Below, piece after piece: positions 7,771 through 61,343 of a stretch of DNA of 64,000 nt. The translations under genes and the position numbers were made by a program. Below the pieces are notes generated by a model. It was given only the letters and a program-made list of their open reading frames with translations. It was not told where the DNA came from and did not search any database. This stretch comes from Acorus gramineus (lineage: Eukaryota; Streptophyta; Magnoliopsida; Acorales; Acoraceae), in contig CM060854.1 in NCBI GenBank assembly GCA_030737835.1, positions 13,666,607 through 13,730,606 on the forward strand, read 5' to 3'. The stretch's first letter is position 1, and every line of letters starts with the position of its first letter.

Positions 7771-10365
7771 TGTTATATATGTGTCACTTTTTAGCCTTTT
7801 GGTCACCTTTGGGTCATTTCTGACAGTTTTCCAATTTTTCTTTTTTCGATCGGAACCATTAAAATTTTGGACTTTTAGCTATCTGCATGAGCTCGAGAAC
7901 TCCGATTGAAAATCTATCTGCATATTATGAGTCCTGGTGCCATTTCGAGCCACTCATAAAAATTTCATCGAATTCCGGTAATTTTAGAAAATTTGGCAGT
8001 TCCGAATCGTATCCGGGTTTTGACCGATTTTGGAATGTCAAAGGGTGACTTGACCAAGTCAAGAAGACTTGGACCAAGTCGTTGACCATTGACTTGGTCA
8101 AGGATTTTTGTTTTTTTGTGTGGTTGGGTTGACTCAAAGCAAGCTCCACCAACCCATTTTCCTCATAAATGTGTGTGTGAGTGTGTTAGTGTAGTGTGTG
8201 TGTGTGTGGAGACTATTGGTGGGCGTCCCCTTCACATCTCCCTCTCACTCACTCCTTCACTCCCTCTTCTTTGTTTGTTCTAAATAGAGGTAGTAAAAGA
8301 AGAAGAAGAAGAAAGACCTAGAAAGGAAAAGAGAAGGTATGTGTGTGTGCAATCCTTGTGTGTTGTTTGTTCTTGTTCCCCTTTTCTTTAACTCCCTCTC
8401 ATGCCTCTTCCCCACCCCTGTTTTCAGCCATTTAAGGGCTTGAAGAGTGGCTGAGAAGGTGGTGGCGGTTGTGGTGGTTTGGTGCGCAAAGGGCACCCGA
8501 GTTTCCCCCTTTTCTTTCCCCTCCTTTTTGGTAAGTTCTCCTCCTCCCTTAGCTTTGTGTTAGATGATTGTTAGGGCTTTTAAGTGTTCAAGCATGCCTT
8601 GCATAGGTGGTAGAGGGAGTGGGAGGGCTGAGGAGGGGGTGGGAGGGGTTCAGGCGCTCGAGCGTCTGTGCGCGCAGAGGGGCGCTGGCGCGCGCAGACG
8701 GGCGCGCTGGAGGGCGCGCGCGGGTACGCTCAGGCGCACGGGCGTGCGCGCGGGTACGCGCAGGTCGGGACGCGCAGTGCGCGTGGGTGCGCGCTAGCGT
8801 GCACGCGCGCGGCAGTGCGTCTGGGCGCGCGGGCAGGCGCACGGCAGTGCGCCAAGGGTGCTGGGGCGCGTGCGTGCGTGCGTATGCATGCGTACGCGTG
8901 CGGGGGGCCATGCGTGTGGCTGCCCGAGGGTTCGGGTAGGTGTCGGGGCACCCGGACTTGCGTGCGTACGTGCGTACTCGCATGCGTGCGAGCCCGTATG
9001 CATGCTTGTCCGAGTTTTAGGCATTCCTAGTAAATTTCATGTACATTTGTGTAGTTTACTCATCATATTGAATGCCCATGTCTTGCAGATCTTGGCGAAC
9101 AGTCACGCAACGACCCGGGTTGCGGTGAGTGGGTCAATCCAATCCAGTAGGGAGGCGTTCGATGCACGTAGGCGTGCATTGCCCTCCCCTGGGGCACCAT
9201 AACTGCATATTAACTTGTGTGAATGAAAACCTATGTAAATGCATGTTTTGCTATGATGTAACCATGCCATGTTAGACATTATATGCTAGGGATATACATC
9301 CATGTATCATGTATAGAGGCCCATACATGCCTAGACACCATGTCCCATGCTTGAAAAGCCTTGATCTATGCATGTTTCCCATTTAGTTTAATTTAATTAA
9401 ATCAAAATGAGATTATGTTGGTATAAGCATGCCTTAGAAAATATTATAACCTTGTTATTATAATATATGTTTCCCCGCATCTTAGTTATGCGCCCTGAAG
9501 GAATTCTTGAGAATTCATTACCTTAGTAGTGTTAGTAATCGTTGTCGACGGATCCAAGAGGATCGTATCCGTGAGAGTAGGTTGTTTTCTCCCCTTCGTT
9601 GGATCCGAGTAGGGACTCCCCGGCATTGGGAAAGCTGTCCTAATAGAGGACTCCCATCCGTAGGTACCACCGATGCGTTCGGAGGGTACTGATCGTGGGA
9701 GTATACCAGGTAGAGGCTGCGCGGGGGAAAGGACTACCGGTGGACCAAGGGTGGAGAGCAGTCTAGTCTGTCCCAAAAGGCCCATGTCACCCCTAAAGGG
9801 TGAGGGTGAGGGTGAGGTGGGTCGGCGATGTTACGACCCACTAGCTTGTACAGTTACTCCCGTTTAGGGACTTTAATTATTTTAAGGTTAATATGAGTTG
9901 TGTTGCATAGATTGTGCCATTCACTGAGCGTGTGGCTCACCCCTCACATATTCTTTTCCTCCAGTTGTTACTGAGTCGGATCTGAAGGAGGAGCTCCCCG
10001 AGGCATCACATCAGTAGCGGAGCAGCGTTCACGTTTTGGGTTCTGCGAGTGAGAGGCCATCACATCCCCTTCTTTGCTTGTATGTATTGTTATCCGTGCT
10101 TGGGCACAACACTTGTATATGGATGTCTTTGTTTATATTGGCTCTCACAGGATAGTTGATTATGTATTCTGGTCTGTAATATGTCTTTGAATTACAGACT
10201 CAGTCGTTTAAGCTTCCGCTATATGTATATATATTATGTCAGCTACATTATTGATTGTGTTGTCATTTTTTATGTTGTTTAGAGTCTTTTATTGATCTCC
10301 TGTATGGACTGCTGATATTATATATATTTACCATGTATCGGGGACGGCCGCCCTGGGGCGTGACA
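7771..10365 (+). mobile_element. Solo LTR A1 (A-type, 2.6 kb), Ty3/gypsy
   Basis: A complete solo LTR. It starts 'tgttatatatgtgtcac', ends 'ggggcgtgaca', and is flanked by the 5-bp duplication 'agccc' (7766-7770 and 10366-10370). Internal layout: A-type U3 with a W-box cluster (8020-8135); CT-rich leader; donor-like GT at 8531; CpG-rich island (about 8650-8990); acceptor-like AG at 9087-9088; G-rich hexamer repeat (about 9785-9815); conserved 3' end. It is inserted in E0. It has the same ends as the LTRs of A4 (51,070 onward), so it is the same family; it formed by recombination between two LTRs. Confidence 0.88.
8020..8135. promoter_or_regulatory. W-box cluster in U3 of LTR A1
   Basis: Seven TTGACC/TTGACT cores on both strands: TTGACC at about 8020, 8050 and 8082; TTGACT at 8089 and near 8128; inverted cores at 8057-8062 and 8096-8101. 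W-boxes are known binding sites for plant WRKY transcription factors. Use by WRKY proteins here is inferred. Confidence 0.6.
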
Positions 10366-16353: not shown

Positions 16354-16456
16354 TGTTATATATGTGTCACTTTTAGCCTTCTGGTCACCATTGGAGCATT
16401 CTGGCAGTTTTTCAACTTTTTCTTTTTTCGATCGGAACCGCTAAAATTTCGGGGTT

Positions 16457-16582
16457 TTGACCAAGCGGAAAGTCATGGGGAGACTTGACCAAGTCAAAGA
16501 TGACTTTGACCAAGTCAAGTTTGACCCTTGACTTGGTCAATCTCTTTTGTTTGTTTGTGTGGATGAGTTGACCAAAGGTCAA
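16457..16582. promoter_or_regulatory. Dense W-box array in U3 of LTR A2
   Basis: Eleven W-box cores in 126 bp on both strands: TTGACC at 16457, 16485, 16506, 16521 and 16568; TTGACT at 16528; inverted AGTCAA at 16492 and 16513; inverted GGTCAA at 16535 and 16577, plus overlapping variants. Random expectation for TTGACY on both strands of such a stretch is about 0.1. Clustered W-boxes are a known mark of WRKY-responsive promoters. Confidence 0.65.
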
Positions 16583-18358
16583 AGCTCACCAAATGACAAA
16601 AAACCCTAAGTGTGAGTGTGTGTGTGTGTGTGGGTGAGTTCACTTAGGCGTCCACCAATAGTCCTTCTTCCCCATCTCTCTCTATCTCTCTCACTCACAA
16701 ACCCTCACATCCCCTCTCTTTAAATCCCCCATTTGAGCTAGTAGAAGAGCTTGAAATAGGAAGCCCTAGAAGAAGAAAAGAAAGGTAGGGTTCCGATCTA
16801 CCTTTCCATGGTTTTGTTTTTGGATTTCCCCTTTGTTGACCTCCTCTCATGGCTTCCTTTATCCTCTGTTTTCAGCCATTCTTGGGCTGAGAAGGGGCTG
16901 AGGTGTGGTGGTCTTGTTGGTGGCGTTTCGGTGCGCGAAGAGCACCCGATTTTCCCTCCCTTCCTTTCCTCTCTTGGGTGAGTCCTTCTCCTCCCTATTT
17001 TCTTGTTTAGATGCATGTTAGGGTGTGTTATGGAGTATGCATGTGTGCTAGGGGTGTGGGAGGGCTGAGGGAGGTGGTGGGAAGGGCTCGGGCGCGTGCA
17101 GGGTCATCCGCGCTCGTGCGCGCGAGTCTGCACGCGCAGGCAGGTACTGGCGCGCGCAGACGGGTGCGCTGGCAGGCGCGCACGCGTACGCGCAGGCGCG
17201 CGAGGGTGCGCGCGGGCGTGAGCGCGGACGTGCGCGCGGGGTGCGCGCGGGGTGCTGCGCAGTACGCGCGGGTGGACGCAGGGCTGAACGGGCGCTGCGC
17301 GCGGGCGCCCGCGAGCGTGCGCGCACCCGCGGCGGCGTGTCTGGGCGCGCTAGCAGGGGCGCAGCAGCGCGTCTGGCCGCGCGGGCTGAGGCGCGGCAGT
17401 GCGCCCGGGGCGCGGGCGTGCGTGCGTGTGTGCGCACCCGTGCGTACGCGTGCGGGTGGCCGGGTGCATTGCTGCCCGTGGGTGAAGGAGGGTGCCGGGG
17501 CACTCGGACTCGCGTGCGTGCGGGCTCGTATGCATGCTTGTCCGAGTGTTGGGTATTTCTAGCGTATTTCTTATGTATTTATGTAATTACTCACTATTTT
17601 GATTACCCATGTCTTGCAGATCTTGACGGGTGGTCATGCGACGACCTGGGTTTTTGGTGAGTGGGATAATCCAACCCAGTAGGGAGGCGTTCGATGCACG
17701 TAGGCGTGCATTGCCCTCCCTTGGATCACCATAGTTGCATATTAGCTAGTGTTGAATGTAAACTATGCCTTGCATGAATATTTTGTTGTATCCATGCCAC
17801 CTCAGACTTTGTATGCTAGGGATACGCACCCTTATATTGATTAATATGATGTATCCATACCACCTTAGATTTGTATGCTAGGTATATGCACCCTTACATC
17901 ATATATAGAGGCCTATGCATGCCTAGACAGCTTGCCCCGATCTGTACATGTCTCCCGCCTAGTTTAATTTAATTAAATCAAAATGTGAGCATGCCTTAGA
18001 GAATATTGTAACCCTGTGTTATAATATATGTCTCCCCGCATCTTAGTTATGCGCCCTGGAGGAATTCTTGTGAATTCAGGACATTATTTTAGTGTTACCA
18101 TCGGTGTCGATGGATCTATGAGGATCGTATCCGTGTGAGTAGGTTGTCTTCTCCTTATTGGTTGGATCCGATGTAGGTACTCCCCGGCGATGGCTGACCT
18201 GACAGAGGGCTTCCGTCCGGTACCTCCGATGTGTTCGGACAGTACTAGTAGTTGGAGTGGACTAGGTCGAGGCTACGAGGGTGGGAAAGGGCTACCGGGT
18301 GGACCAGGGGTGGAGAGCGGTCTACTATGCCCTAAGAGGCCCATGTCACCCCCCGGAA

Positions 18359-27753: not shown

Positions 27754-29425
27754 GGGAATTGATTACCTGCGGTCGTGCGGTCTTGAGGTCCATCGTGCGC
27801 GCCCGCACTTAGTCGTTCGATCGGTGCTTTCACACGATCGGACGGCTAATGACTGTTTTAAAAAAAAAAAATCAAACCGGGTGAAACCGGTTGCCTTCTC
27901 TCTCTCCTCTCATTTTTCTCTTCTTCTCTTCGACACAACAGAGCTTCTCTTCGACCCAACAGAGGAAAAAAAAAAAATGGAGGGAGCACCACCTACTGCG
28001 GCCTCATCCGCTCGGCCACCCCCACCCCTCCCCGTTCTCAACGACCACCGGCCACCCCTACCTCTCCCCGTGCTCGACGGTAGGTTTTTATCTGGCTTTT
28101 TTTCAGATCTAGGGTTTTATTTTCAGATTTATTTTGGGTCTAGGTTTTTATTTGATTTTTTTCAGTCATAGGCTTTTCTTTTCAGATTTATTTTGAAATC
28201 TAGGTTTTTGTATGATTTTGGGTCAGATCTAGGGTTTTCTTTTCATATTTATTTTGGGTCTAGGTTTTTATTTAATTTTTTTCAGTCATAGTTTTTTTTT
28301 TCAGATTTATTTTGAAATCTAGGTTTTTATCTGATTTTTTTTCAGTTATAAGGTTTTTTTCATATTCTTTCATGATCTAGAGTTCTCTTTTCAGATTTGT
28401 TTTACTTTGTATATGCTTATTGAGGAAGGCATTTGAAGCAAAAAAAAAAAAAAAATTGATAGATGAAGCCGGTGGTAGATGAGGAGATCGGTAGCAGCAC
28501 ACCCTGACATTATTTAGAAATAGGTGTAAGTGCATACTATACACATTGGATTACTGTGACTGATAATCTGAATTGAAGCATGAAAAGTACTGTTAAGGGA
28601 TTGTTTATGCAAGAAATAGAATGAATAGATTGATTTGTTTTTCACCCCATCAGTAGTTGAAATCCTACTGAAATTAGAATTGTTGGTTATGGATAGAACA
28701 AATAAAAATTTACAGAGTAAGTTTTTTGTTATTTGTGAGATTTTGGAAGGATTATATGATGAATGTCATATTGATATTGATGGTGTACTTGTTGCCTGGG
28801 TAATTTAAATTTTAATCGAACAGTGGTTATTAAGGTATCATTTAGGCATACATTATCATGCAAAGTCCTGATTTTGATGTCTCAGGCTTTTGGATAACTA
28901 GTTTGTATCGATTCGGAGTCTATTTTTGTCCAAAACTGGAGTAGGTGTGACATCTTCCTATTACTGATGTGACATAGAATAAATAAGTCATTGATATGGC
29001 ATTAGGGGAACAAGAATTTGTGGATGGACTTCCTCGGATCATGCTTGCATGTTCATATGTATGTTACATTATAAATGTCACTGCAATTTTCTTCTTCTTT
29101 TTTAACTGAATATGTTTAAATCATTTTGAATTGTGGGTTGCAAATTGTGGATGCATGGCGATATGTAGATAACCCTGTGTAGATTGCTTAGGCACCTTAA
29201 TGTAATCAATATTAGTGGGTGTGTTGTTCATGAAATGTATGTTTATTTTTTGTTTGCAATGAAAATGTTACTACTCTAATTCTATGAAATGTATGAGCAT
29301 TTGAATCACATTTGGTCTTTATATTTCAGTTAAAATGTTTAATGGATTATCAGTCCCTCCTATTCTTCTTTATTAATATGAGCTGGCAGATTTGGTTGAA
29401 TTGGAATCATGCTGTCTATGAATAG
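27754..29425 (+). repeat. Left 1.6-kb inverted arm of MULE 2
   Basis: Pairs with 31,925-33,537. Landmarks present in both arms: the CGATCGG palindrome (about 27,815-27,845); the 'gtgaaaccggttgcc' stretch; the Pro-rich GC patch (27,980-28,085); the 'gcatggcgatatgtag' block (about 29,150); and 'gatttggttgaattggaatc' at the inner end. Confidence 0.8.
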
Positions 29426-31924: not shown

Positions 31925-33537
31925 AAAGACAGCATGATTCCAATTCAACCAAATCTGCCAGCTCATATTAATAAAGAAGAATAGGAGGGACTGATAATCC
32001 ATTAAACATTTTAACTGAAATATAAAGACCAAATGTGATTCAAATGCTAAACATACATTTCATGAACAACACACCCACTAATATTGATTACATTAAGGTG
32101 CCTAAGCAATCTACACAGGGTTATCTACATATCGCCATGCATCCACAATTTGCAACCCACAATTCAAAATGATTTAAACATATTCAGTTAAAAAAGAAGA
32201 AGAAAATTGCAGTGACATTTATAATGTAACATACATATGAACATGCAAGCATGATCCGAGGAAGTCCATCCACAAATTCTTGTTCCCCTAATGCCATATC
32301 AATGACTTATTTATTCTATGTCACATCAGTAATAGGAAGATGTCACACCTACTCCAGTTTTGGACAAAAATAGACTCCGAATCGATACAAACTAGTTATC
32401 CAAAAGCCTGAGACATCAAAATCAGGACTTTGCATGATAATGTATGCCTAAATGATACCTTAATAACCACTGTTCGATTAAAATTTAAATTACCCAGGCA
32501 ACAAGTACACCATCAATATCAATATGACATTCATCATAATCCTTCCAAAATCTCACAAATAACAAAAAACTTACTCTGTAAATTTTTATTTGTTCTATCC
32601 ATAACCAACAATTCTAATTTCAGTAGGATTTCAACTACTGATGGGGTGAAAAACAAATCAATCTATTCATTCTATTTCTTGCATAAACAATCCCTTAACA
32701 GTACTTTTCATGCTTCAATTCAGATTATCAGTCACAGTAATCCAATGTGTATAGTATGCACTTACACCTATTTCTAAATAATGTCAGGGTGTGCTGCTAC
32801 CGATCTCCTCATCTACCACCGGCTTCATCTATCAATTTTTTTTTTTTTTTTGCTTCAAATGCCTTCCTCAATAAGCATATACAAAGTAAAACAAATCTGA
32901 AAAGAGAACTCTAGATCATGAAAGAATATGAAAAAAACCTTATAACTGAAAAAAAATCAGATAAAAACCTAGATTTCAAAATAAATCTGAAAAAAAAAAC
33001 TATGACTGAAAAAAATTAAATAAAAACCTAGACCCAAAATAAATATGAAAAGAAAACCCTAGATCTGACCCAAAATCATACAAAAACCTAGATTTCAAAA
33101 TAAATCTGAAAAGAAAAGCCTATGACTGAAAAAAATCAAATAAAAACCTAGACCCAAAATAAATCTGAAAATAAAACCCTAGATCTGAAAAAAAGCCAGA
33201 TAAAAACCTACCGTCGAGCACGGGGAGAGGTAGGGGTGGCCGGTGGTCGTTGAGAACGGGGAGGGGTGGGGGTGGCCGAGCGGATGAGGCCGCAGTAGGT
33301 GGTGCTCCCTCCATTTTTTTTTTTTCCTCTGTTGGGTCGAAGAGAAGCTCTGTTGTGTCGAAGAGAAGAAGAGAAAAATGAGAGGAGAGAGAGAAGGCAA
33401 CCGGTTTCACCCGGTTTGATTTTTTTTTTTTTAAAACAGTCATTAGCCGTCCGATCGAGAGAGCACCGATCGGACGACTAAGAGTGCGGGCGCACGATGG
33501 ACCTGACGACCGCACGACCGCAGGTAATCAATTCCCT
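31925..33537 (-). repeat. Right 1.6-kb inverted arm of MULE 2
   Basis: Reverse copy of the left arm with the same landmarks in reverse order. A transcript crossing both arms would form a very long double-stranded stem. Confidence 0.8.
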
Positions 33538-42029: not shown

Positions 42030-44340
42030 TAATTTCCCCATTAATCAAATAATATGATTTTAAATTACATTATTCTTATTTAAAATTTGATCTCAAAATC
42101 TGAAATTAATGAAATATATAAATACAAAATATGAATAATTTGATAATAAAAAATATGATAAGAAAAGCTTCACATAAATTAATTGAGATACATTTTATTA
42201 AAATATTTTAATTTTGAGTTATTTAAATTTCAATATAGTGATAAGATTTACTTAATTCTGATTTTAAAATACTAAATATGTATTTATGATTTACATAGAT
42301 CTAATTTAAAATTTATATATATATACACACACACATATACATATACATACATGTGTGTGTCATGGGATTCTTTTTATAACAAAATTAAATTTTGATTTTT
42401 AGGTGATATTATTAATTATTAGTTAAGGTATGAAGGGTTTTTGTTTATAATCATTAATATTATTTGTATATATTTTGATTGCACAAAAATGTATAAAATA
42501 AAATTTATTTTATTTATAACGAATTTGAAATTTAAATTTAAATTAAAACTGTCTAATTTATATTTTCTATTTATAATTTCACTTTTCATCAATATTGAAA
42601 TTTGATAAAGAATCAACTTTTGTTACCATTCCAAAAAATAAGAAATCTCAAGAAAATTTAGAGGATTAGAACTAAAAGAAACTAAACCAAAGACGTATCC
42701 CTACAAAATGGGATTATTTTTAGAGAAAATTAAAATTTTACTCGTTTAAATATGAAGGTTTTTTTTTTTACAGTTTTATTGTTTTACACGAAATAAAAGT
42801 ATCAAAATGAAACGTATTTTATTTATCATGAATTTTTAATTTAAAGTAAAAAATAAAAGCTAATTATTATACATTTTTACTAGTTACAATGCACGTGCTA
42901 AAACACGTGGTATAACATTTTTAATTACATATAAATAAACAATTAAATAATAATAATTATATAAAAATTAAATATTCATTAAATAAAAAAATATATAAAC
43001 TTGTGTATGAGCGTATATATATACAATGCTAAAAAAATGTGCTATTGTAATACAAAAATAACATGTATATATATCTGAAATATCAATCACAGGTTTTCTT
43101 ATAAAAAAAAATTATATAAAAATTAAATATTCATTAAATAAAAATATATATGAACTTGTGTCTGTGTGTATATATATACAATGCTAAAAAGAATGTGCTA
43201 CTGTAATATAAAAATAACATGTATATATTTCTGAAATATCAATCACAAGTTTTCTTACAAAAATAAAAATAAAAACAGTGGACATATTAATGGTTCAACA
43301 ACTAATAAATAAAAAATCATCAATATTTTTAATATAATATAAAAAATAAAAAGTGGTCAAATTTGCACTTATTTTACTCTCACAAAAAAATCATTAAAAA
43401 TAAATGTACGGTCTTGAAAAAAAAACCACATAAGCAATCAAATCTTCTAATAAGTCTTAAACAACCCTAAAAAATCTCTGTCTGTAGTATAGACCAAATG
43501 TATATCCCAAAGAAAAAACAATAATTTATTTTGCCTCAACTTAGCATTTCATGAAAATATGTCAATAAATTTTTCATCACATCATTCATAAATAAAAGTT
43601 ATGTTTAATATTAATTTTATTCCTACCTACACAGAAATAATAAATTTTATTCTTCAATATTATATACAAATTAATTAAATGTTATACAAAGATTCTCATA
43701 ACATTATTTTGTGGTTGAAATTTATTTTCTAGATAATTGTTTTTAAATGATTATTTAAATAAAAAAACCTTGAGAACATCAACTCTACTTTTGACTAAAA
43801 TAATTAATTAGGTTATAAAAATAAAATCAAAATATTAAAAAGAACAATTTACTCTCCATGTGTGTCGAACTCTGTGTATGCATTAATCAATTCTCCTGAG
43901 AACATTCAATTAAAAAAATGATTAGAGCTTTTTTTATTGTTAAGCAACCCCAACAAAAATATTATTAAAGATATTCAAAACAAAACACATTCATCATTCT
44001 TATAAAAGTCATTTTAAAACAAATACAAAACCTAATTTTTTTAATCTAATAATTATTAAAACATAAGCAAACATAAATCATATAACATAAAATAAAAAAA
44101 TAAATTCTTTTCTAAATAGACAAAAACCCAAAAAAAAAAAAAACACGGAATGAATTGTAGAAGAGGCATGTCATTTATAGATTTTTAGATGGATTTTGTC
44201 CTAAAATCAAGGGAGTGTGGGTTAGAGTATATATCCTAAACTAAAAAAACTAATCACTGTATTTATCAAATATTTAAAGTTAAATTTAAAAACAATAAAA
44301 CTGATTTTTTGTTTTTATATATTTATTTTAATACATTTTT
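42030..44340. other. Very AT-rich non-coding DNA
   Basis: No gene seen. It contains a TA/CA microsatellite (42,317-42,360), a 155-bp duplication (42,949-43,262) and a CACGTG-bearing stretch 'caatgcacgtgctaaaaca' near 42,887. Otherwise it is featureless. Confidence 0.5.
42949..43262. repeat. 155-bp tandem duplication
   Basis: Two copies of a unit containing 'ataaaaattaaatattcatt' (42,961 and 43,116), 'acaatgctaaaaa' and 'tgaaatatcaatcaca'. They are over 90% identical by eye. Confidence 0.8.
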
Positions 44341-45540
44341 TATCAATCAAGGAATTTAAATTTTAAAATAAAAACTGATTTTATATCTAGTATTTATTTA
44401 ATATTAAATCATCTATAAGTTTTTTTTAATTTAATAATTATCACGTTTTTTTTGTTTTTAAATTTCCATAAATTAGGGATGAGTGAATTATCAAACAAAA
44501 AATAAGGATAAGATTTTAAAAAAATACATAAATCGTTTATAAATAAGAATACCAACAAAATAGGGATTAAAAAATAAAAATAAAAGAAGATAAAGATAAA
44601 TGAAAATGAATAACAAAAAAAGGATGATCTCTTTCATTTAATAGATAAGTATTAGATATTAGTAATTAATTAATTATTTAAGGGATAAAAAGGGAAATGA
44701 AAAATATTGGGTCACAATTCTTTTAAAAAGTAAGTAATAGATTTTATCAATCAAGGAATTTAAATTTTAAAACAAAAACTGATTTTATATCTAGTATTTA
44801 TTTAATATTAAATCATCTATAAGTTTTTTAATTTAATAATTATCACGTTTTGTTTTGTTTTTAAATTCCCATAAATTAGGGATCAATGAATTATCAAACA
44901 CAAAATAAGGATAGGATTTTTAAAAAATACATAAATCGTTTATAAATAAGAATACCAACAAAATAGGGATTAAAAAAAATAACAATAAAAGAAGATAAAG
45001 ATAAATGAAAATGAATAACAAAAAAGGTGGATCTCTTTCATTTTAAAAATAAGTATTAGATATTAATAATTAATTAATTATTTAAAGGATAAAAAGAGAA
45101 ATGAAAAATATTGGGTCACATAATTCTTTTAATAGATTTTATCAATCAAGGAATTTAAATTTTAAAATAAAAACTGATTTTATATCTAGTATTTATTTAA
45201 TATTAAATCATCTATAAGTTTTTTTTAATTTAATAATTATCACCTTTTTTGTTTTTAAATTCCCATAAATTAGGGATGAATGAATTATCAAACACAAAAT
45301 ACTGATAAGATTTTTTAAAAATACATAAATCGTTTATAAATAAGAATACCAACAAAATAGGGGATTAAAAAAATAAAAATAAAAGATGATAAAGATAAAT
45401 GAAAATGAATAACAAAAAAGGTGGATCTCTTTCATTTAATAGATAAGTATTTAATATTAGTTATAAATTAATTATTTAAAGGATAAAATGGAAAATGAAA
45501 ATATTGGGTCACATAATTCTTTTAATAAGTAAGTAATAGA
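44341..45540. repeat. Tandem triplication, unit about 400 bp
   Basis: Three head-to-tail copies start 'tatcaatcaaggaattt' at 44,341, 44,745 and 45,140 (spacing 404 and 395). Each runs through 'cccataaattagggat', 'aatcgtttataaataagaa' and 'attgggtcaca'. The copies look over 90% identical. There is no open frame. Confidence 0.88.
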
Positions 45541-49212: not shown

Positions 49213-50853
49213 TGTTATATATGTGTCACTTTTATCCTTCTGGTAACCATTGGAGCATTCTGGCAGTTTTTCAGTTTTTTTCATTTTTCTATCGGAACTG
49301 CTAAAATTTTAGACTTTTAGCGATCATCCTGAGTTTCAGGACTCCGATTGAAAATCTAACTGCATATTATGTGTCCTGGTGCCATTCCAAGACACTCACG
49401 AAAATTTCGTAGAATTCCGATAACGTTTCAAAATTTCGCAGTTCCGAATCTTATCTGGGTTTTGACCAAGCGGGAAGTCATTGGGAGACTTGACTTGGTC
49501 AAATGTGGGCCCATGACTGTGTCAACTCCTTTGTTTTCTAGTGTGGATGGGTTGACCCAAGTCAAAGTGCACCTAAACCTAGCCTAAACCTAATTAGGGC
49601 TAAGTTAAGTGGGTGTGAGTGTGTGTGGTGTGGGTGTGAGCATAAATAAATCCCACGACAACAATAAGCCCCACTATTCATCATCTTATCCAAAAAATTT
49701 CTCTCTCTCCCCTCTCTTTAAATCCCCATTTGGACCTACTTAGAGTGTTCAAAAGAAGAAACCCTAGAAGGAGAAATGCAAAGGAATTGTCCCGATCTAT
49801 CCATCCATGGTCTTGGACCTTCATTTCCCTTTGTTTTTCCTCCTCTCATGGCCCCTTTTCTCCTCAGATTTCAGCCACTTCAAGGGCTGAAGGAGGGCTT
49901 GGTAGTGGTGGCCTTGGCGGTGGTATTTCAGTGCGCGAAGAGCGCCCGAAGTTCCCTCCCTTCCTTTCCTCTCCTTGAGTGAGTTTTCTTTCCTTCCTTT
50001 CTTGTTTAGATGCATGTATAGGAGGTGTTTATGGGTGTGCTAGGGGAGCTTGGTGGTTTGGGGGTTGTTGGGGGTATGTTGGTGGCGGTTGGAAGTGTTA
50101 GGGTTGGCTCGGGTGCATGCGGGCTCAGCGGCGTGCGTAGGCAGGCCGGCGCAGGCGGCAGGCAGGCAGCCAGGGCAGGCTGGGAGGCGCAGGGCAGGCG
50201 CGCTGTCGGGCGAGCTGGCAGGGCACGCGCGTGTGCGCGCGGGTGTGCACGCGGGTGCTGCGCGCTGGGCGCAGTGCCGGGCGTGCGCGTGGGCATCGCG
50301 TGCGGGTGCTGCGCGCTCTGCGCCGTGCGGGGGCGTGCGCGCGGAGCGCTGCGCAGAGGTGCAATGCGTGCTGTGCGCGCGGTGAGGCGAGCGGGCTTGC
50401 GTGCGGGGTGCGCGCGGGGTGCTGCGCTGGGGCGCAGTGCTTGCGGGTGTGCGCGCGGGCACGCGCGAGCGTGCGCGCGGCGTGCGGCGGGTCTGGGCGT
50501 GCGGGTAGGGGCTCGGTCTTGGTGGGATGGACCCACCACGTCCATCAGCATCCCTTTTTGATTGTATGTATTATATTTCCGTGCTTGTACACCCGTTTGT
50601 ATTATATTGGATGTAATTGTATATATTGGCTCTCACAGGACAGTTGATTATGTATTGAGTCTGTGATATGTTTTTGATTTACAGACTCAGTCTTTTAGCT
50701 TCCGCTATTTGTGTATATATCATGTCAGCCCTGCTTTTGTCTGTGTTGTCATTTTACTTGTTGTTTGGAGTATGTTATTGACCTCCTGTTTAGACTGCTG
50801 ATATCATATATACACTTGCCGCGTCCCTGGGACGGCCGCCCTGGGGCGTGACA
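49213..50853 (+). mobile_element. Solo LTR A3 (A-type), shortened
   Basis: Starts 'tgttatatatgtgtcac', ends 'ggggcgtgaca', and is flanked by 'tatta' (49,208-49,212 and 50,854-50,858). It carries the A-type U3 with five W-box cores (49,462-49,564), a TTTAAAT motif near 49,717, donor-like GT at 49,979, and a CpG-rich island (about 50,110-50,500). It is only 1.64 kb; the part of the family LTR after the island is largely missing. It sits about 60 bp past the stop codon of the GRF gene remnant. Confidence 0.87.
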
Positions 50854-51069: not shown

Positions 51070-54000
51070 TGTTATATATGTGTCACTTTTTAGCCTGCTG
51101 GTAACCATTGGAGCATTTTGGCAGTTTTTGAGTTTTTTTCATTTTTCGATCGGAACCGCAAAATTTTGGACTGTTAGCTATCGTCCTGTGTTTGAGGACT
51201 CCGATTAAAAATCTAACTGCATATTATGTGTCCTGGTGCCATTTTAAGCCACTCACAAAAATTTCATCGAATTCCGGTACGTTTTAGAATTTCACAGTTC
51301 CGGGGCGTATCCGGGTTTTGACCGAGCGAGAAGTCATTGGGAGAGTTGACTCGGTCAAAGTGGGCCCATGACTTGGTCAACCCTTTTTGTTTTTTTGTGT
51401 GGTTGGGTTGACCCAAGTCAAATCCCACTTAAACCTAATTAATCAAGCCTTAACCCTAGGTTAACACTAACTTAAGTGTGTTGACTTATTTAATGAGATC
51501 TCAAAAGGTTGCCCTACACTATTCATCATCTTCCCCACTTGTTTTCTCTCTCCCCCTCTCTCCTTTTCTTAGTTTTGAGCCACCTAGAGTTCTTGAAACT
51601 CAAAACTCAAAACATAGAAAGGTTAGATCCGGTCCCGATCTATCTACCAGTAGTTTCGTATTCGAATTCCGAGGTGTTTAGCCCCCTCTTACCCCCTCTC
51701 TTCTCCTCAGATTTTGGCCCTTTCTTGGCTAGGAGGAGATCTTGGTGGTGGAAGGCTTTGGGGAGGCATTTCGGTGCAAGAAGAGCTTCCGGTTCCTTCC
51801 TCTCCTCTTCTTCCTTTGGGTAAGCTCTCTTTCCTTCCTTTTCTTGCTTAGATGCTTGTTAGGAGGGTGGGTTTGGGTGTTGGTGGCTGTGGGGGGTGAT
51901 TGGTGGCTGTTGGAGGCCATTGGTGGCCGGATAGAGGAGGTAGGGTGGCTCGGGCAGGGGGTTGGCTGTCTCGGGCAGGGTGACTGGTGGTCTCGGGCAG
52001 GTTGGCAACACAGGCAGCAAACAGCGCACCTGGCTGGGCGCGCGCGTGCGTGCGCGCGGGCGTGCGCTCGGGTGGAGCTGGAGGGCGTGCTGGGCGCGTG
52101 TGCTGGGCGCGCGTGATGGGCGCTGGGCGGGTGTGTTGGGCGCTGGTCGTGGGTGGTGGGGCACTGCGTGCAGGGCGCCATGCGGGGGCGTGCGCGCGGA
52201 GCGCTGCGCAGAGGCGCAGGCGCGCTGTGCGCGCGCGGCGAGTCGGTGGAGTACTGGGCGAGCCGGTGGTGCGCGCAGGGTGTGCGCGGAGCGAGGCGAG
52301 GGCAGCGGAGGTGCGCGCGGGGTGCGCGCGGAGCGTGCGGTGTGCGCGCGGGCTGCTGCGCTGGGGCGCAGTGAGCGCGCGGTGCACCCGGGGAGCTCGG
52401 CAGCGTGTCCAGGCGTGCGGGCAGGGGCCCGGCGGTGCGCCTGGGTGCGCGGGCTGAGGCGCGGCGGTGCATCCGGGGGCGGGTGGCCGTGGGTGGTTGC
52501 CGGGGTGCGGGAGTGAGTCGGGGTGCTCGGGCTAGCGTGCGTACGGGCCGTATGTACGTTTGCCCGAGTGTTGGGTATTTATTGTGTATTTTGGAGTATT
52601 TTGTGGTATTTGTGTATTTTACTCACCGGGTTGATTACCCTGTCTTGCAGATCTTGACGGACGGTCGCGCGACGATCCGGTTACCGGTGAGTGGGACAAC
52701 CCAACCCAGTTGGGAGGCGCTATATGCACTTGGGCGTGTACCGTCCTCCCCTGGGGCACATAGTTAATATTAACTGTTATATGTAATCCATGCAAGCATG
52801 ATTAGTGTGCAGAATGCATGCCACCCTAGACTTGTATGTTAGGGACTTGCACCCTTAGGATATGTGTAAAACCGTGCATCCTGTCACCTTGTAATCATGC
52901 TAGGAAAGCCCCGACCTATGCATGTGTCCTATGAGTTTGATTTATTTAATTAAATGCAACTTATGATATTGATTAGCATGCCTTGGGGAATATAAGGGGG
53001 CCTTGCGAGGTAAACATTGAGACCCGGGCTAGGGTACTCCGTGTTCCTTGTTTGGTTGGCGGGATGTCCTATATCGGGACCTCAGGTTGCCCTCCCAAGG
53101 TCTCTTTTCCTCATTATTATCTTATGTATTCCCCGCATCTTGGTTATGCGCGCTGGAGGAATTCTGAAGAATTCAAGACATTAGAGTTGTAGAGATGTGT
53201 TGTCAGCGGATCCGAGTGGATCATATGCGATGGATAGGCTGTTCTGTTCCCTTCGTTGGATCCGTGTAGAGACTACCTCAGCGTTAGAAAGGTCGTCCCG
53301 TGCAGGGGCTCCCATCAGTAGGCACCTCCTGATTTGGTAGACGGACTGTGCTGAATGTGGGAGTGGCCAAACGGCCTACGGAGTGGGGAGAGACTATCGG
53401 TGGACCAAGGGTGACCAACAGCCTAGTCAGTCCCAAGAGCCTATGTCACCTATTGAGGGGTGAGGGTGAGGGTGTGGTGGGCCGGCGATGTGGCGACCCA
53501 CAGGATTGTGTAAGGATGATTATCAGCCTATTAAGTCCCAATATCCTTTGTCACCTATTGAGGGGTGAGGGTGAGGGTGAGGGTGTGGTGGTTCGGCGAT
53601 GTAACGAACCCCCGGATTTGTGTTGTTTATGCCATTTTGAGGCTAGTGACTTGATTAAATGTGGTTAATATAAACTGTGATGCATGGGTTGTGCTATTCA
53701 CTGAGCGTGTGGCTCACCCCTCGCATAATTTTTTCCAGTGATTACCGAGGCGGACTTGAAGGAGGAGCTTCCCGAGCGACTACACCAGTAGCGGAGTAGC
53801 GCCACGTCCCTCGAGTTTTGAGGCCATCAGCATCCTTCCTTTTATTGTATGTATATATTTCTGTGCTTGGGCACCCAGTTGGATTGTATTTGGATGTATT
53901 GTGGATATATTGGCTCTCACAGGACATATGATTATGTATCGAGTCTGTAAAGTGTTGTTGATTTACAGATTCAGTCTTTTTAGCTTCCGCTTTCTGTGTA

Positions 54001-54138
54001 TACATCATGTCAGCCCTTTTGTTGTCTGTGTTGTCTTTTTAGCTGTTGTTTATGGTATATTATTGATCTCCTGTATTGACTGCTGATATCATGTATACCC
54101 TTGCCGCGTCCCGGGGACGGCCGCCCTGGGGCGTGACA
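51070..54138 (+). repeat. 5' LTR of A4, 3.07 kb
   Basis: Starts 'tgttatatatgtgtcac', ends 'ggggcgtgaca'. It has A-type U3 with six W-box cores (51,318-51,421), donor-like GT at 51,820, CpG-rich island (about 52,030-52,500), acceptor-like AG at 52,649-52,650, two units carrying (GGGTGA)n (about 53,455-53,590), and the conserved 3' end. It is the best reference copy of the family LTR in this window. Confidence 0.9.
51318..51421. promoter_or_regulatory. W-box cluster in U3 of the A4 5' LTR
   Basis: TTGACC at 51,318 and 51,408; TTGACT at 51,346; inverted GGTCAA at 51,353 and 51,375; inverted AGTCAA at 51,416. The same set is kept in the 3' LTR (about 59,310-59,420). Confidence 0.6.
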
Positions 54139-54143
54139 AAAGT

Positions 54144-54155
54144 TGGTATCAGAGC
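54144..54155 (+). other. Primer binding site, initiator tRNA-Met
   Basis: TGGTATCAGAGC begins five bases after the 5' LTR. It is complementary to the 3' end of plant initiator tRNA-Met, the usual primer of Tekay-type chromoviruses. Confidence 0.88.
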
Positions 54156-54258: not shown

Positions 54259-55400
54259 ATGCCTCCTCGCAGAGGACGGCGCGGACGTGGTCCCTCTCGA
54301 CCCTTGGAGGTTTCCGGACCTACCAGGGGCGAGGATGCTATTGGTGAGTCCTCAGCCGTGAGGCCAGGATCAGCGCAGGAGCCTCCTGCCTGGGAGCGCG
54401 CGTTTGCGCGGATAGCTGATTTGGTGGAGACGCAGACCAGGGCATTGGAGGCCCAGACCAGAGTGTTGGCAGATCAGGCACGGGAGATTCAGGAGCTGCG
54501 GGCGGCCCGCGAGGCAGTTCCGCAGGTTCCCTTGGTGGCAGATCCACCTGTGGTACCCGATGTACCCCCAGTCCCCGTGGTGGTCCGACGGTCAGAGTTC
54601 AGGATCCCCAGGAGAGGGAGGTGGGGCTAGAGGCTGCAGCGAGGGTGCAGCAGAGTGGCCTCTCAGCCTTTCTGAAGCTCCACCCTCCCGAGTTCCAGGG
54701 TCAGACGGAGGACCCCCCTTGCTCCAGAGAGATGGTTGATGGAGGTGGATGCGCCGCCGCCAGCGAGTCTCCCTGGCCACTTTTATGCTGAAGGGTAGCG
54801 CCGCCGACTGGTGGGCTACTAGATCAGTGGACATCCCAGAGGGATTGGAGCAGCTTACATGGGCGGGATTCCGGAGGTATTTCTTGGAGGAGTACTTCCC
54901 CTTCTCGACACGCAGATAGTGATGCAGGAGTTTGAGCAGCTGACTCAGGGCACTATGTCTGTCGCTGACTACTCCACGCGCTTCACGAGGCTGTCCAGAT
55001 TCGCTCCAGCTTTGGTGATGGACGAGGAGACGAGGTGCCGTCGATTTGAGCTCGGTCTCAGCAGCGCCATTCGGGTGCACGTCACCTCCCAGGCTTTCTC
55101 GAGGTACTCCGACTTGGTGTCTCGAGCGAAGACAGTCGAGCGAGACCTCGGGATCCTAGTGAGGGCTTCGACCCCCTTTCGGCAGACCAGAGGCCACCCA
55201 GGAGCCAGGACCGGGGACAGCGCAAGAAGAAGAGGCCCCGCTTTGAGCAGTCAGCGGCTGCCTCTCCTCCAGCAGATGCGGTGCCAGTGCGAGGTCCAGC
55301 ACCCATCGCAGCAGTGCCAGTCCAGGCGAGGCGACCAGAGACGCGGCGCTGTTATCACTGTCAGCGCGTCGGGCATATCTTGTATAATTGCCCCGACGCT
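54259..55400 (+). pseudogene. gag region of A4
   Basis: Begins MPPRRGRRGRG. A coiled-coil-like stretch (AFARIADLVETQTRALEAQT) lies near the start, capsid-like sequence follows, and a CX2CX4HX4C zinc knuckle (CYHCQRVGHILYNC) lies at about 55,348-55,392. A Gln-rich linker (55,420-55,540) follows the knuckle. This is fossil sequence; the frame is broken. Confidence 0.75.
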
Positions 55401-55599
55401 GGCCGACCCCGAGTGATGCCTCCGCAGCAGCAGCAGTTGCAGCAGCAGCCGTTTCAGCAGCAGCGCCAGCAGCAGCAGCAGCCTCAGCGCCAGCCGCAGC
55501 AGCCTCAGCGTCAGCAGCAGCAGCCACAGGGTGGCCGTGCTGATCAGAGGAGGCAGCCAGCGCAGCCGGCGAGGCGTGCCCCTGCTCCTCAGCCTCAGT

Positions 55600-56040
55600 T
55601 CGTTCAGGGCCGAGTGGCAGCGCTTTCGGCAGAGGAGGCTCAGGCATCAGGCAGCGTGGTCAGAGGTATTGTTCAGATCTCCCAGCTTCCTGCTTATGTA
55701 TTGTTTGATTCCGGAGCCACACACTCGTTCGTGTCTCCCGCTTTCGCGAGACGGACGGGCGTGGCGTCCGCCCCTTTGGATGCTATCTTGGAGATATCAT
55801 TGCCCGTGGGAGACCGTATTCTCCTCAGTTCTGTGTACCGAGGGTGTACGGTAGAGGTTGCGGAGCATGAGTTTCCAGTGGAGTTGGTGGAGCTCGCGAT
55901 GACGGACTTTGATGCCATTCTGGGATGGATTGGCTTGCAGCTAGTCATGCCAGCATCGACTGTTTTGCCAAGTCGGTGTCTTTCCACCTTCCGGGTCGGA
56001 GGTCCTTCCAGTTCGTGGGCGATCGTGACGTAGCCCTCTG
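55600..56040 (+). pseudogene. Protease domain of A4
   Basis: The retroviral-type aspartic protease motif LFDSGATHSFVS lies at about 55,700-55,735, followed by the usual hydrophobic strands. Fossil. Confidence 0.75.
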
Positions 56041-56149
56041 GGGTTCGTGTCGTCCATGCAGGCGTGGAGACTCCTTCAGGGAGGATGCGAGGGCTTTCTA
56101 GCGTACATTGCTCAGGAGGATGCACCGCTGCGGGCAGATATCAGTCAGA

Positions 56150-56910
56150 CTCCGGTCGTGGCAGAGTATCCCGAGGTTTTCCCCGATGATCTTCCGGGAT
56201 TACCGCCGGATCGCGCGATCGAGTTTGAGATCAATCTGATTCCGGGGACCGAGCCGATTTCGAGAGCTCCGTACCGGATGGCCCCTGCAGAGCTGAGGGT
56301 GCTCAAGGAGCAGTTGGAGGAGTTGCTGGAGAAGGGCTTCGCACGTCCGAGTGTTTCTCCGTGGGGAGCCCCTGTCCTGTTCGTCCGGAAGAAGGACGGT
56401 TCGCTGCGGCTGTGTATTGATTACAGGCAGCTGAACAAGCGGACAGTGAAGAACAAGTACCCGTTGCCGCGGATCGACGATCTGTTTGACCAGCTCCAGG
56501 GAGCGCGTGTCTTTTCCAAGATCGATCTCCGCTCGGGGTACTACCAGCTGAAGATCCGGGAGTCAGACATTCCGAAGACGGCCTTTCGCACCCGGTATGG
56601 GCACTACGAGTTCAGAGTACTGCCATTCGGGTTGACGAACGCGCCGGCGGCCTTCATGGATCTGATGAACCGGGTATTTCGGCCCTTCCTCGACTCCTTT
56701 GTGGTAGTATTCATCGATGACATATTGGTGTACTCGAGGAGTCTTGAGGAGCACGCTCACCATCTTCGCACTGTCTTGGAGACTTTGGCCAGACATCAGT
56801 TGTTCGCCAAGTTCAGCAAGTGCGAGTTCTGGTTGGAGCGTATGGCCTTTCTGGGCCATGTGATTTCCGGTGAGGGCATATCTGTGGACCCGGAGAAGAC
56901 GCTCGCCGTG
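56150..56910 (+). pseudogene. Reverse transcriptase domain of A4
   Basis: Ty3/gypsy reverse transcriptase blocks are clear: [50 protein letters not shown] and the catalytic [11 protein letters not shown] near 56,710. This is the best-preserved part of the coding region. Fossil. Confidence 0.88.
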
Positions 56911-57109
56911 TCGAATTGGCGTCGACCGTCGAACCCCACAGAGATTCGGAGCTTCTTGGGCTTGGCGGGTTATTACAGGAGGTTTGTCGAGGGTTTCTCG
57001 AAGATAGCCGTTCCTCTTACCCGCCTCACTCGGAAGGATGTTCGGTTCGAGTGGTCCCCTGCTTGCGAGGAGAGCTTCCAGGAGCTGAAGCGAAGGCTCA
57101 CCTCAGCGC

Positions 57110-57470
57110 CAGTTCTTACCCTTCCGTCTGGGAGTGGTGGGTTCGCAGTTTACACGAATGCATCGCAGTTGGGTGTGGGTTGCGTCCTGATGCAGCACGG
57201 TAAGGTTGTGGCTTACGCGTCTCGTCAGTTGAAGCCCCATGAGCAGAATTACCCCACCCACGACCTTGAGTTGGCAGCGATCATCTTTGCGCTGAAGATG
57301 TGGAGGCATTACCTCTATGGAGAGGAGTTCGAGCTCTTTACCGATCATAAGAGCTTGACATATCTGCAGTCCCAGCCGGAGCTCAACATGCGTCAGAGAC
57401 GTTGGGTTGAGTTCCTGACGGACTACGATTGTGACATCGCTTACCATCCGGGTAAGGCGAATGTCGTGCA
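57110..57470 (+). pseudogene. RNase H domain of A4
   Basis: Gypsy-type RNase H follows the reverse transcriptase, with [37 protein letters not shown] and [10 protein letters not shown]. Fossil. Confidence 0.82.
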
Positions 57471-57744
57471 GATGCGCTCAGTAGGCAGCCCTTGGGCATG
57501 GCCGCCCACATGGCTGTCCGTCGTTGGAGGCTTCTGGAGGAGGCCGCTTGCTGGATTAGCGTTCGAGAGACTCCTGCTGGTGGCTTTTTGGCCAGGCTAG
57601 TGGTGCAGCCAGTCCTTCTCGACGATATCCGCACGGCTCAGGCACAGGATCCGCATTTTATAGTCCTCTCTGAAGGCGTCGCCCGGGGCGAGCGTCCGGA
57701 CTACCAGATTCGCCGGACGGGATCCTGCGATTCAGAGGCCGAGT

Positions 57745-58500: not shown

Positions 58501-58844
58501 CTCAGAGATGGTGAAGACGATTCGCGAGCGTATCCGAGTCGCTCAGAGTCGTCAGAAGTGCTACGCCGACCGTCGTCGCCGTGAGCTCGCCTTCGAGGTT
58601 GGTGACCATGTTCTTGAAGGTGTCCCCGATGAAGGGCATCTTCTGTTGTGGTGTGCGGGGCAAGCTGAGTCCGCGTTTCATTGGGCCGTTCCTCATCCTC
58701 GAGCGAGTTGGAGAGGTGGCCTATCGCATAGCTCTGCCCCCACAGTTGGCTCAGGCTCATGACGTCTTCCATGTCTCGCAGCTGAGGCGATACGTCCACG
58801 ATCCTGCTCACGTCATCCCGTTCGAGCCGCTCGTCTTCGAGCCG

Positions 58845-59018
58845 GACTTGTCTTTCGTTGAGCAGCCGATTGAGATCCTGGACCGCCGCGAGAAGAGGCT
58901 CCGCACCAAGACCGTCCAGCTGGTCAAGGTGCGATGGCAGCACCGTTCCGGTGCCGAGGCCACTTGGGAGCTCGAGGACGCCATGCGTGACGCGTATCCG
59001 CATCTTTTCCCTTCTTAG
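58845..59018 (+). pseudogene. Chromodomain at the C-terminus of A4 pol
   Basis: PIEILDRREKRLRTKTVQLV, then a VRW core and ATWELEDAMRDAYPHLF, match the chromodomain that chromovirus integrases use for targeting to chromatin. It ends at a stop just before the polypurine tract. Confidence 0.78.
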
Positions 59019-59066: not shown

Positions 59067-61343
59067 TGTTATATATGTGTCACTTTTTGCCTTCTGGTAA
59101 CCATTGGAGCATTTTGGCAGTTTTTGAGTTTTTTTCATTTTTCGATCGGAACCGCAAAATTTTGGACTGTTAGCTATCGTCCTGTGTTTGAGGACTCCGA
59201 TTGAAAATCTAACTGCATATTATGTGTCCTGGTGCCATTTAAGCCACTCACAAAAATTTCATCGAATTCCGGTACGTTTCAGAATTTCACAGTTCCGGGG
59301 CGTATCCGGGTTTTGACCGAGCGAGAAGTCATTGGGAGAGTTGACTCGGTCAAAGTGGGCCCATGACTTGGTCAACCCTTTTTTTTTTTGTGTGGTTGGG
59401 TTGACCCAAGTCAAATCCCACTTAAAACCACTTAACCTAATTAATCAAGCCTTAAACCTAGGTTAACACTAACTTAAGTGTGTTGACTTATTTAAGTGGG
59501 ATCTAAAATGTTGCCCTACACTATTCATCATCTTCTCAAACTCATTTTCTCTCTCCCCCTCTCTCATTTCTTAGTTTTGAGCCACCTAGGGTTCTTGAAA
59601 CTCAAAACTCAAAACATAGAAAGGTTAGATCCGGTCCCGATCTATCTACCGGTAGTTTTGGATTCGAATTCCGAGGTGTTTAGCCCCCTCTTACCCCCTC
59701 TCTTCTCCTCAGATTTTGGCCCTTTCTTGGCTAGGAGGAGATCTTGGTGGTGGAGGCTTTGGGGAGGCGTTTCGGTGCACGAAGAGCTTCCGGATCCCTT
59801 CTTTTCCTCTCCTTGCTTTGGGTAAGCTCTCTTTCCTTCGTTTTCTTGCTTAGATGCTTGTTATGAGGGTGGGTTTGGGTGTTGGTGGCTGTGGGGGGTG
59901 ATTGGTGGCCGGATAGAGGAGGTAGGGTGGCTCGGGCAGGGGGTTGGCAGTCTCGGGAAGGGTGACTGGTGGTCTCGGGCAGGTTGGCAGCACAGGCAGC
60001 AGCACAGGCAGCAAGCAGCGCAGCTGGCTGGGCGCGTGCGCGCGGGCGTGCGCTCGGGTGGAGCTGGAGGGCATGCTGGGCGCGGGTGTGCTGGGAGCTG
60101 GTCGTGGGCGGTGGGGCGCTGCGTGTAGGGCGCCATGCGGGGGCGTGCACGTGTGTGCGCGCGCGGCGAGTCGGTGGAGTGCTGGGCGAGCCGGTGGTGC
60201 GCGCCGGGTGCACGCGGAGCGAGGTGAGGGTAGCGGAGGTGCGCGCGGGGTGCGCGCGGGGCGTGGCGATGGGCGCGCGGAGCGTGCTGTGTGCGCGTGG
60301 GCTGCTGCGCTGGGGCGCAGTGAGCGCGCGGTGCACCCGGGGAGCTCGACGGCGTGTCCAGGCGGCGGGTAGGGGCCCGGCGGTGCGCCTGGGTGCGCGG
60401 GCTGAGGCGCGGCGGTGCATCCGGGGGCGGGTGGCCGTGCGGGTGGTTGCCGGGGGTGCGGGAGTGAGTCGGGGTGCTCGGGCTAGCGTGCGTACGGGCC
60501 GTATGTACGTTTGCCCGAGTGTTGGGTATTTTTAGTGTATTTTTGTGTATTTTGTGGTATTTGTGTATTTTACTCACCGGGTTGATTACCCTGTCTTGCA
60601 GATCTTGACGGACGGTCGCGCGATGACCCGGTTACCGGTGAGTGGGACAACCCAACCCAGTTGGGAGGCGCTATATGCACTTGGGCGTATACCGTCCTCC
60701 CCTGGGGCACCATAGTTAATATTAACTGATTAATATGTAATCTGTGCAAGCATGATTAGTGTGTAGAATGCATGCCACCCTAGACTTGTATGTTAGGGAC
60801 TTGCACCCATAGGATATGTGTAAGAGCCGTGCATCCTGTCACCCTGTTCATATGATAGGAAGCCTCGACCTATGCATGTGTCCTACTAGTTTGATTTATT
60901 AATTAAATGCAAACTTATGATATCTTAGTATGCCTTGGGGAATATTAAGGGGGCCTTGCGAGGTCAACATTGAGACCCGGGCTAGGGTACTCCGTGTTCC
61001 TTGTTTGGTTGGCGGGATGTCCTATATCGGGACCTCAGGTTGCCCTCCCAAGGTCTCTTTTCCTCATTATTATTTTATGTATTCCCCGCATCTTGGTTAT
61101 GCGCGCTGGAGGAATTCTGAAGAATTCAAGACATTAGAGTTGTAGAGATGTGTTGTCAGCGGATCTGAGTGGATCATATGCGATGGATAGGCTGTTCTGT
61201 TCCCTTCGTTGGATCCGTGTAGAGACTGCCTCAGCGTTAGAAAGGTCGTCCCGTGCAGGGGCTCCCATCAGTAGGCACCTCCTGATTTGGGATGGACAGT
61301 GCTGAATGTGGGAGTGGCCAAACGACCTACGGAGTGGAGAGAG
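59067..61343 (+). repeat. 3' LTR of A4, first part
   Basis: Same order as the 5' LTR: W-boxes, donor-like GT at 59,822, CpG-rich island (about 60,030-60,440), acceptor-like AG at 60,600-60,601. Interrupted at 61,344 by B3 after 'gagag'; the remainder should lie beyond the window. Confidence 0.88.

Follow-up and report, generated by a model that had tools for sequence, protein, structure and literature searches.

Five long terminal repeats (LTRs) of one type, designated A1-A5, carry dense arrays of the hexamer TTGACY in the 64,000-nucleotide stretch of Acorus gramineus DNA analysed here (the window), and the question raised by this locus is whether these arrays serve as binding sites for WRKY factors in the promoter of a retrotransposon or owe their presence to something else. 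Mechanical counting on both strands yielded 10 TTGACY in the A2 array, six on the plus and four on the minus strand, where the initial annotation had given 11; the eleventh lies at 16836-16841, beyond the array. The recounts of A1, A3 and A4 agreed with the numbers reported before, as did the occurrence of the hexamer in both orientations, and a fifth array, absent from that annotation, was found in A5 (Table 1). The window as a whole contains 71 TTGACY as compared with 70.06 ± 8.43 in whole-window shuffles, and as there is no enrichment over its full length, the case for the arrays rests on clustering: 34 of the 71 sites are packed into the 552 bases of the five arrays, with about 0.14 expected per 126 bp from the window mean. 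Dinucleotide-preserving shuffles of the initial 500 bp of the LTRs had means of 0.77-1.11 TTGACY per 500 bp, and the observed count was reached in none of 2000 shuffles for A1, A2, A4 and A5 and in two of 2000 for A3, which bears out the excess over shuffled sequence that had been predicted. Many of the sites are not independent of each other, since they occur as inverted pairs of the form TTGAC-(2 to 5 nt)-GTCAA. TTGACY sites are clustered above chance in the putative LTR promoter. A direct-repeat pattern, TTGACYNNNNNTTGACY, was uninformative, with 233 matches as against 195 in the reversed control.

Table 1. Positions in the window of the A-type LTRs, their W-box arrays and the recognizable parts of the element enclosed by A4 and A5.
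Feature	Position	Strand	Details
A1 solo LTR	7771..10365	+	Starts TGTTATATATG, ends GGGGCGTGACA; AGCCC directly before TGTT and directly after GACA (target-site duplication AGCCC)
A1 W-box array	8020..8135		7 TTGACY
A2 LTR	16354..18358	+	Self-alignment; B-type LTR starts where A2 ends, ~18359
A2 W-box array	16457..16582		10 TTGACY; extra ~21-bp unit relative to 8-site copies
A3 solo LTR, internal deletion	49213..50853	+	Target-site duplication TATTA
A3 W-box array	49462..49565		5 TTGACY
A4 5' LTR of Ty3/gypsy element	51070..54138	+	3069 bp; start motif; ends GGGGCGTGACA, followed by PBS-like stretch
A4 W-box array	51318..51421		6 TTGACY
A4 last W-box	51481..51486	+	Adjoins weak TATA-like TATTTAA at 51487..51493
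PBS-like stretch	54144..54154	+	TGGTATCAGAG
Aspartyl protease stretch	55050..56030	+	RVP_2, E 1.2e-27
Reverse transcriptase and RNase H	56029..57597	+	RVT_1, E 2.2e-36; RT_RNaseH, E 1.9e-34
Chromodomain-like pol end	58725..59015	+	Chromo, E 6.2e-5; 23.3 bits, below the curated cut-off of 25.1
A5 3' LTR, partner of A4	59067..61343	+	90% to A4 over 2378 columns; B-type LTR from 61344
A5 W-box array	59313..59414		6 TTGACY

All five A-type LTRs begin with TGTTATATATGTGTCAC, and in A2 the self-alignment revealed the lack of ~145 bp ahead of the array. A4 and A5 are the paired LTRs of an element with a PBS-like stretch, which we take to be of the initiator tRNA-Met type, and with matches to RVP_2, RVT_1 and RT_RNaseH; the carrier of the arrays is a Ty3/gypsy element, as follows from the protease, reverse transcriptase and RNase H matches, and probably a chromovirus, the chromodomain-like match being weak. 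For an integrase after RNase H, one stretch, 57970-58581, was compared in one frame and gave no Pfam match at E 0.001, and no PBS-like stretch was found after A1. The long LTRs together with the chromodomain-like match presumably point to the Tekay/Del clade. A4 and A5 differ by a K2P distance of 0.0436 over 2225 aligned sites, corresponding to about 1.7 million years if a rate of 1.3e-8 is assumed.

From the LTR start and the TATA-like site, the arrays would lie within U3. The assignment to U3 made in the initial annotation stands in so far as the arrays occupy the 5' part of the LTR upstream of a putative promoter, where, compared by eye, the TATTTAA of A4 takes the place of a TATATAA in copies that lack the array. 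Likewise, of the proposal that solo LTRs might leave portable WRKY-responsive promoters in the genome, the part concerning sequence is upheld, as arrays are retained in the solo LTRs A1 and A3, each of which is flanked by a 5-bp target-site duplication.

The window also contains three LTRs of a second type (B-type, at 12619, ~18359 and 61344; TGTTGTG/TGTTATGCC..TGTGTCATTTGGAGCGC), two of which adjoin A2 and A5. Their 3' half is common with the A-type, and their 5' part differs from it and has zero to two TTGACY in 500 bp. Elsewhere, an inverted repeat (27856-29252 and 32041-33435) has arms of ~1.4 kb that are 99-100% complementary and contain ~60-bp tandem repeats, with a 2.8-kb middle, and a 394-bp tandem repeat is present three times, with 90% matches, at 44338-45541.

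The sequence around the TTGAC cores was examined for agreement with the W-box. In PMC6671987, the W-box core is given as TTGAC(T/C), and in PMC3795721 the WRKY11 site as TTGACY, although a TTGACG site was also found. Between positions +230 and +460 of the LTRs, a span that does not take in the A2 and L087 arrays, situated further 5', the base after TTGAC was C in 139 cases, T in 89, A in three and G in none (C or T in 228 of 231), and counting from the array start gave C 148, T 83 and A 3. Altogether 89 convergent pairs TTGAC..GTCAA were present in 36 rows, with linkers of 3 nt in 59, 4 nt in 23, 5 nt in six and 2 nt in one. The linkers comprise 16 distinct sequences, all of which begin with C or T and 15 of which end with A or G, with a variable middle and length, the rows in which they occur being related to each other. 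Both the sixth base and the linker ends fit TTGACY, the W-box core.

A paired TTGAC, however, is likewise a reported target of BEL1-KNOX (TALE homeodomain) heterodimers, which had not been considered when WRKY factors were put forward. If such heterodimers bound the arrays, the promoter would follow the meristem or the state of development instead of defence, and expression in the meristem would favour the inheritance of new copies. The double TTGAC/TGAC motifs recognized by StBEL5-POTH1 of potato come in several orientations, TTGACaaGTCA and GTCAAtgcTTGAC among them, and their linkers do not exceed 4 nt (PMC3904721). The resemblance to our arrays lies in the paired TTGAC and the short linkers, the linker being 3 nt long in 59 of the 89 convergent pairs and no longer than 4 nt in 83, while the six of 5 nt are at variance with the potato motifs. 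In those motifs, moreover, the base after TTGAC is not restricted to C or T: A or G follows TTGAC in four of the six that are readable in that source, which favours WRKY over BEL1-KNOX given the C/T rule of our arrays. Heterodimer binding would leave the linker free, an expectation at odds with the C or T that starts each of the 16 distinct convergent linkers, even if these, coming from related rows, are not 16 independent events. Also against BEL1-KNOX, the first TTGACC of the array, which 30 of 33 rows retain, stands by itself in all seven copies listed, the nearest other TGAC being more than 4 nt away. One observation counts against a WRKY-based reading: the GTCA core in AAGTCAT (ATGACTT) at 51333-51336 of A4 and at the matching places, a TGAC core which is not a full W-box (ATGACT), has its GTC kept in 31 of 33 array rows. 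Seven copies were checked over their first 500 bp for the WRKY33-specific motif (T/G)TTGAAT, and none of them has it. Putative WRKY control is the best reading of these sequences and would account for the constraint on TTGACY in the way expected of W-boxes; BEL1-KNOX binding is unlikely, yet a real rival.

The arrays might also have arisen without any transcription factor, as inverted repeats spread by slippage and copied with the element, and family-wide amplification would multiply any motif. Clear duplications of ~21-22 bp are indeed present, as the 10-site copies of the A2 type have an extra unit of ~21 bp relative to 8-site copies, and a separate duplication, of 22 bp, is found in L088. 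Array evolution by duplication, as suggested earlier, is to that extent observed, but net growth is not, the trend on a tree rooted on A1 being one of loss.

What argues against such a by-product is the distribution of variants in the arrays. Among 33 array copies, the 30 core columns had two shared and eight private variants and the 80 non-core columns 48 and 18, respectively (Fisher p = 0.002). Private variants were about equally frequent per column in the core (0.27) and outside it (0.23), as would result from decay once a copy has inserted. It is the shared variants, the mark of replicating lineages, that avoid the cores. As cores chosen by majority favour conserved columns, the analysis was repeated with nine reference copies, each of which in turn supplied the cores. 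In all nine, diversity was lower in the cores (0.025-0.060) than outside them (0.154-0.189), and values as low were obtained in 0-3 of 108-115 circular shifts and in 1-137 of 5000 random pentamer sets. The contrast between shared and private variants had p < 0.05 in six of the nine references and was not significant in A1 (0.28), L109 (0.08) and L110 (0.08). LTR columns upstream of the array had a diversity of 0.096, a value between the higher one of the array flanks and the lower one of the cores.

Between subfamilies, the linker bases, the linker length and the flanks change, whereas TTGAC and the pyrimidine at the sixth base are kept. All four shared changes at sixth-base columns were C/T or A/G swaps, which by itself is weak evidence because transitions also made up 23 of the 48 shared changes outside the cores. 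Near-invariance of the core columns between subfamilies, the similar rates of private mutation and the restriction of the sixth base to C or T, in 33 related copies and with a contrast that holds in six of nine references, point to selection on W-boxes in the replicating lineages. An array without regulatory function would be expected neither to keep TTGACY while linkers and spacers vary nor to have cores that differ from their flanks in shared and not in private variants, as found in those six references, and we regard this explanation as distinctly improbable.

Selection might alternatively act on the inverted repeats as such, if they formed an RNA or cruciform hairpin serving the element at the 3' end of its genomic RNA, in termination or in packaging. 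The arrays do fold better than shuffled sequences, with z values of -4.6 (A2), -2.6 (A1), -3.7 (A4) and -1.9 (A3), as any inverted repeats would, and other copies retain the base pairs of the A4 fold at a median of 0.88. For the folds of A1, A2 and L029 the corresponding medians are no more than 0.54, 0.59 and 0.76, the best folds differ among copies, and the linker ends are often a non-pairing C..A. Because the pairing of three of the four reference folds is poorly conserved among copies, we rank a hairpin low as the main function and consider it very improbable.

How widely the array is distributed in the family was determined from 70 copies chosen by the LTR start only, which are the first 70 of 100 listed among 9346 places and all come from contig C1 (8.8-20.0 Mb); 30 further copies (L039-L068), obtained with an array-containing query, were left out of the array-frequency and constraint counts. 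At least four TTGACY were present in the first 500 bp of 28 of the 70 LTRs. The other 42 share the same 5' end and have fewer than four (none in 33, one in seven and two in two). In 35 of these 42, TTAAGT follows directly on GGGTTTT, which in array copies stands ahead of the first W-box; four more (L030, L070, L073 and L083) have, by eye, a near variant of this junction and three (L011, L034 and L101) are otherwise rearranged. TATAWA occurs between +200 and +560 in 31 of the 42 copies as opposed to two of 33 array copies. The array-less sisters include L014, L018, L019-L021, L028 and L036, and many of these sisters have a TATA box immediately after the GGGTTTT/TTAAGT junction. With fewer than four sites in 42 of 70 LTRs, the array is unnecessary for amplification, and the amplification of array-less copies is also what an array of no function would lead one to expect.

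A tree was built from the sequence upstream of the array for 65 of 75 copies, omitting A2, L087, L034, L011 and L101 as rearranged, and L030, L070, L073, L103 and A3, in which the junction pattern is absent. Rooted on A1, it has the array-less copies nested among array copies, the array copy L013 beside array-less ones, and the copies with 8-10 sites branching close to the root. Two changes of the array trait are required, which one deletion and one recombinant, or two deletions, would fit. Growth of the array as the main trend was considered and rejected on account of the position of the 8-10-site copies near this root, itself tentative, and of the nested array-less ones. The tree tentatively suggests that large arrays are old in the family, that smaller arrays and the array-less form came later, and that the array was lost in the lineage with a canonical TATA box, the root being tentative because it rests on A1 as a single copy and on the likeness of A1 to the short divergent relatives L109-L111.

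The relative age of the two forms was estimated from LTR pairs, taken as neighbours 5-9 kb apart in one orientation, with partnership assumed from this spacing; 11 pairs were array-less, five had arrays and three were mixed. Over all same-class pairs, the lower divergence of array-less pairs was not significant (p = 0.16). Among pairs under K2P 0.15, which have the better chance of being genuine partners, the cut being chosen post hoc and dropping five same-class pairs, the seven array-less ones (0.008-0.032, two of the seven sharing a copy) were all below the four array ones (0.038-0.062; p = 0.003). These distances tentatively suggest that the array-less lineage is the younger. A hand-picked set of 13 pairs, in which the array-less ones also appeared younger (p = 0.005-0.007), was incomplete and has been superseded by the full set.

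In the 398.6 Mb of genome searched, the exact 17-base LTR start was found at 9346 places, the array-start junction CGTATCYGGGTTTTGACC at 4522 and the array-less junction CGTATCYGGGTTTTTAAGT at 3998, each with none in the reversed control. The inverted pair TTGACYNRGTCAA, with a 3-nt linker of the form Y..R, occurred at 10,115 places (reversed control 90), and the corresponding pair with the wrong sixth base, TTGACRNYGTCAA (R..Y), at 94 (reversed control 65). Since 33 array copies have 1.61 pairs of the TTGACYNRGTCAA type each, the 4522 array junctions would account, as a rough estimate, for ~7,300 of the 10,115. Four TTGACYNRGTCAA-type places without the standard junction were examined; three (L109-L111) align with the LTR arrays and one (L112) is unlike them by eye. 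The 10,115 places derive largely from few ancestors. As to possible binding partners, the host genome has 118 matches to PF03106, mostly single exons of WRKY genes, as compared with matches in none of 14 control genomes. Clusters of WRKY-domain exons are found at C5:29.90-29.95 Mb and C32:5.28-5.91 Mb.

We propose that the arrays form the enhancer part of the LTR promoter in a high-copy Ty3/gypsy, probably chromovirus, family. Each array of the window has 5-10 TTGACY upstream of a TATA-like site in the 5' part of the LTR, most of them paired in the inverted form TTGAC-YN..R-GTCAA, in which the linker is 3-5 nt long. Host WRKY factors would bind these arrays and, wherever conditions induce WRKY activity, increase the transcription of the element. 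The array would be old, modified by duplications of ~21-22 bp and by deletions, and, if the root on one copy is correct, removed as one block in the lineage with the canonical TATA box. That the arrays are WRKY-bound enhancers of the LTR promoter with this age and this block loss is, on balance, somewhat probable. In a wider proposal, the family would hold most of the genomic inverted W-box pairs as WRKY-bound enhancers or decoys, its promoter would have passed from a WRKY array with a weak TATA box to an array-less form with a canonical one, and the newest wave of insertions would be array-less; taken as a whole, this is rather unlikely. Having both promoter types, with and without the constrained array, in thousands of copies, such a family would serve as a natural experiment: it might reveal if a retrotransposon gains or loses by immune-responsive transcription, and would also bear on the spread of WRKY-responsive promoters to genes by solo LTRs.

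Most known stress-responsive LTRs belong to Ty1/copia elements, beside which our family has to be placed. The subfamilies of the Ty1/copia element Tnt1 differ in U3 sequence, with motifs that differ from the W-box array described here. In tobacco these subfamilies are regulated differently under stress (PMC3316501), and the counterpart in our family, at the level of sequence, is the presence or absence of the array between subfamilies. EPCOT3 of Arabidopsis is a case in which a transposon-borne WRKY33 site has come to act on a neighbouring gene as a pathogen-responsive enhancer (PMC6671987); it is a LINE-derived fragment at a single locus, unlike our LTRs, of which the seven copies checked lack (T/G)TTGAAT in their first 500 bp. 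The closest likeness is to EVADE/ATCOPIA93 of Arabidopsis, which has W-boxes in its LTR promoter that WRKY factors bind, immune signals activating the element when epigenetic silencing is weakened, according to a review (PMC12786077). With these precedents, the idea of immune-responsive LTRs with W-boxes is not new. W-box arrays in a gypsy LTR were not described in the titles and abstract openings returned by a literature search that covered few subscription papers. EVADE/ATCOPIA93 is a Ty1/copia element, whereas the present one belongs to Ty3/gypsy, has its sites largely as inverted pairs, and exists in thousands of copies together with an array-less sister lineage. To these precedents the locus adds a dense, largely inverted-pair array in a gypsy family, together with the constraint on that array, the number of its copies and the sister lineage that lacks it.
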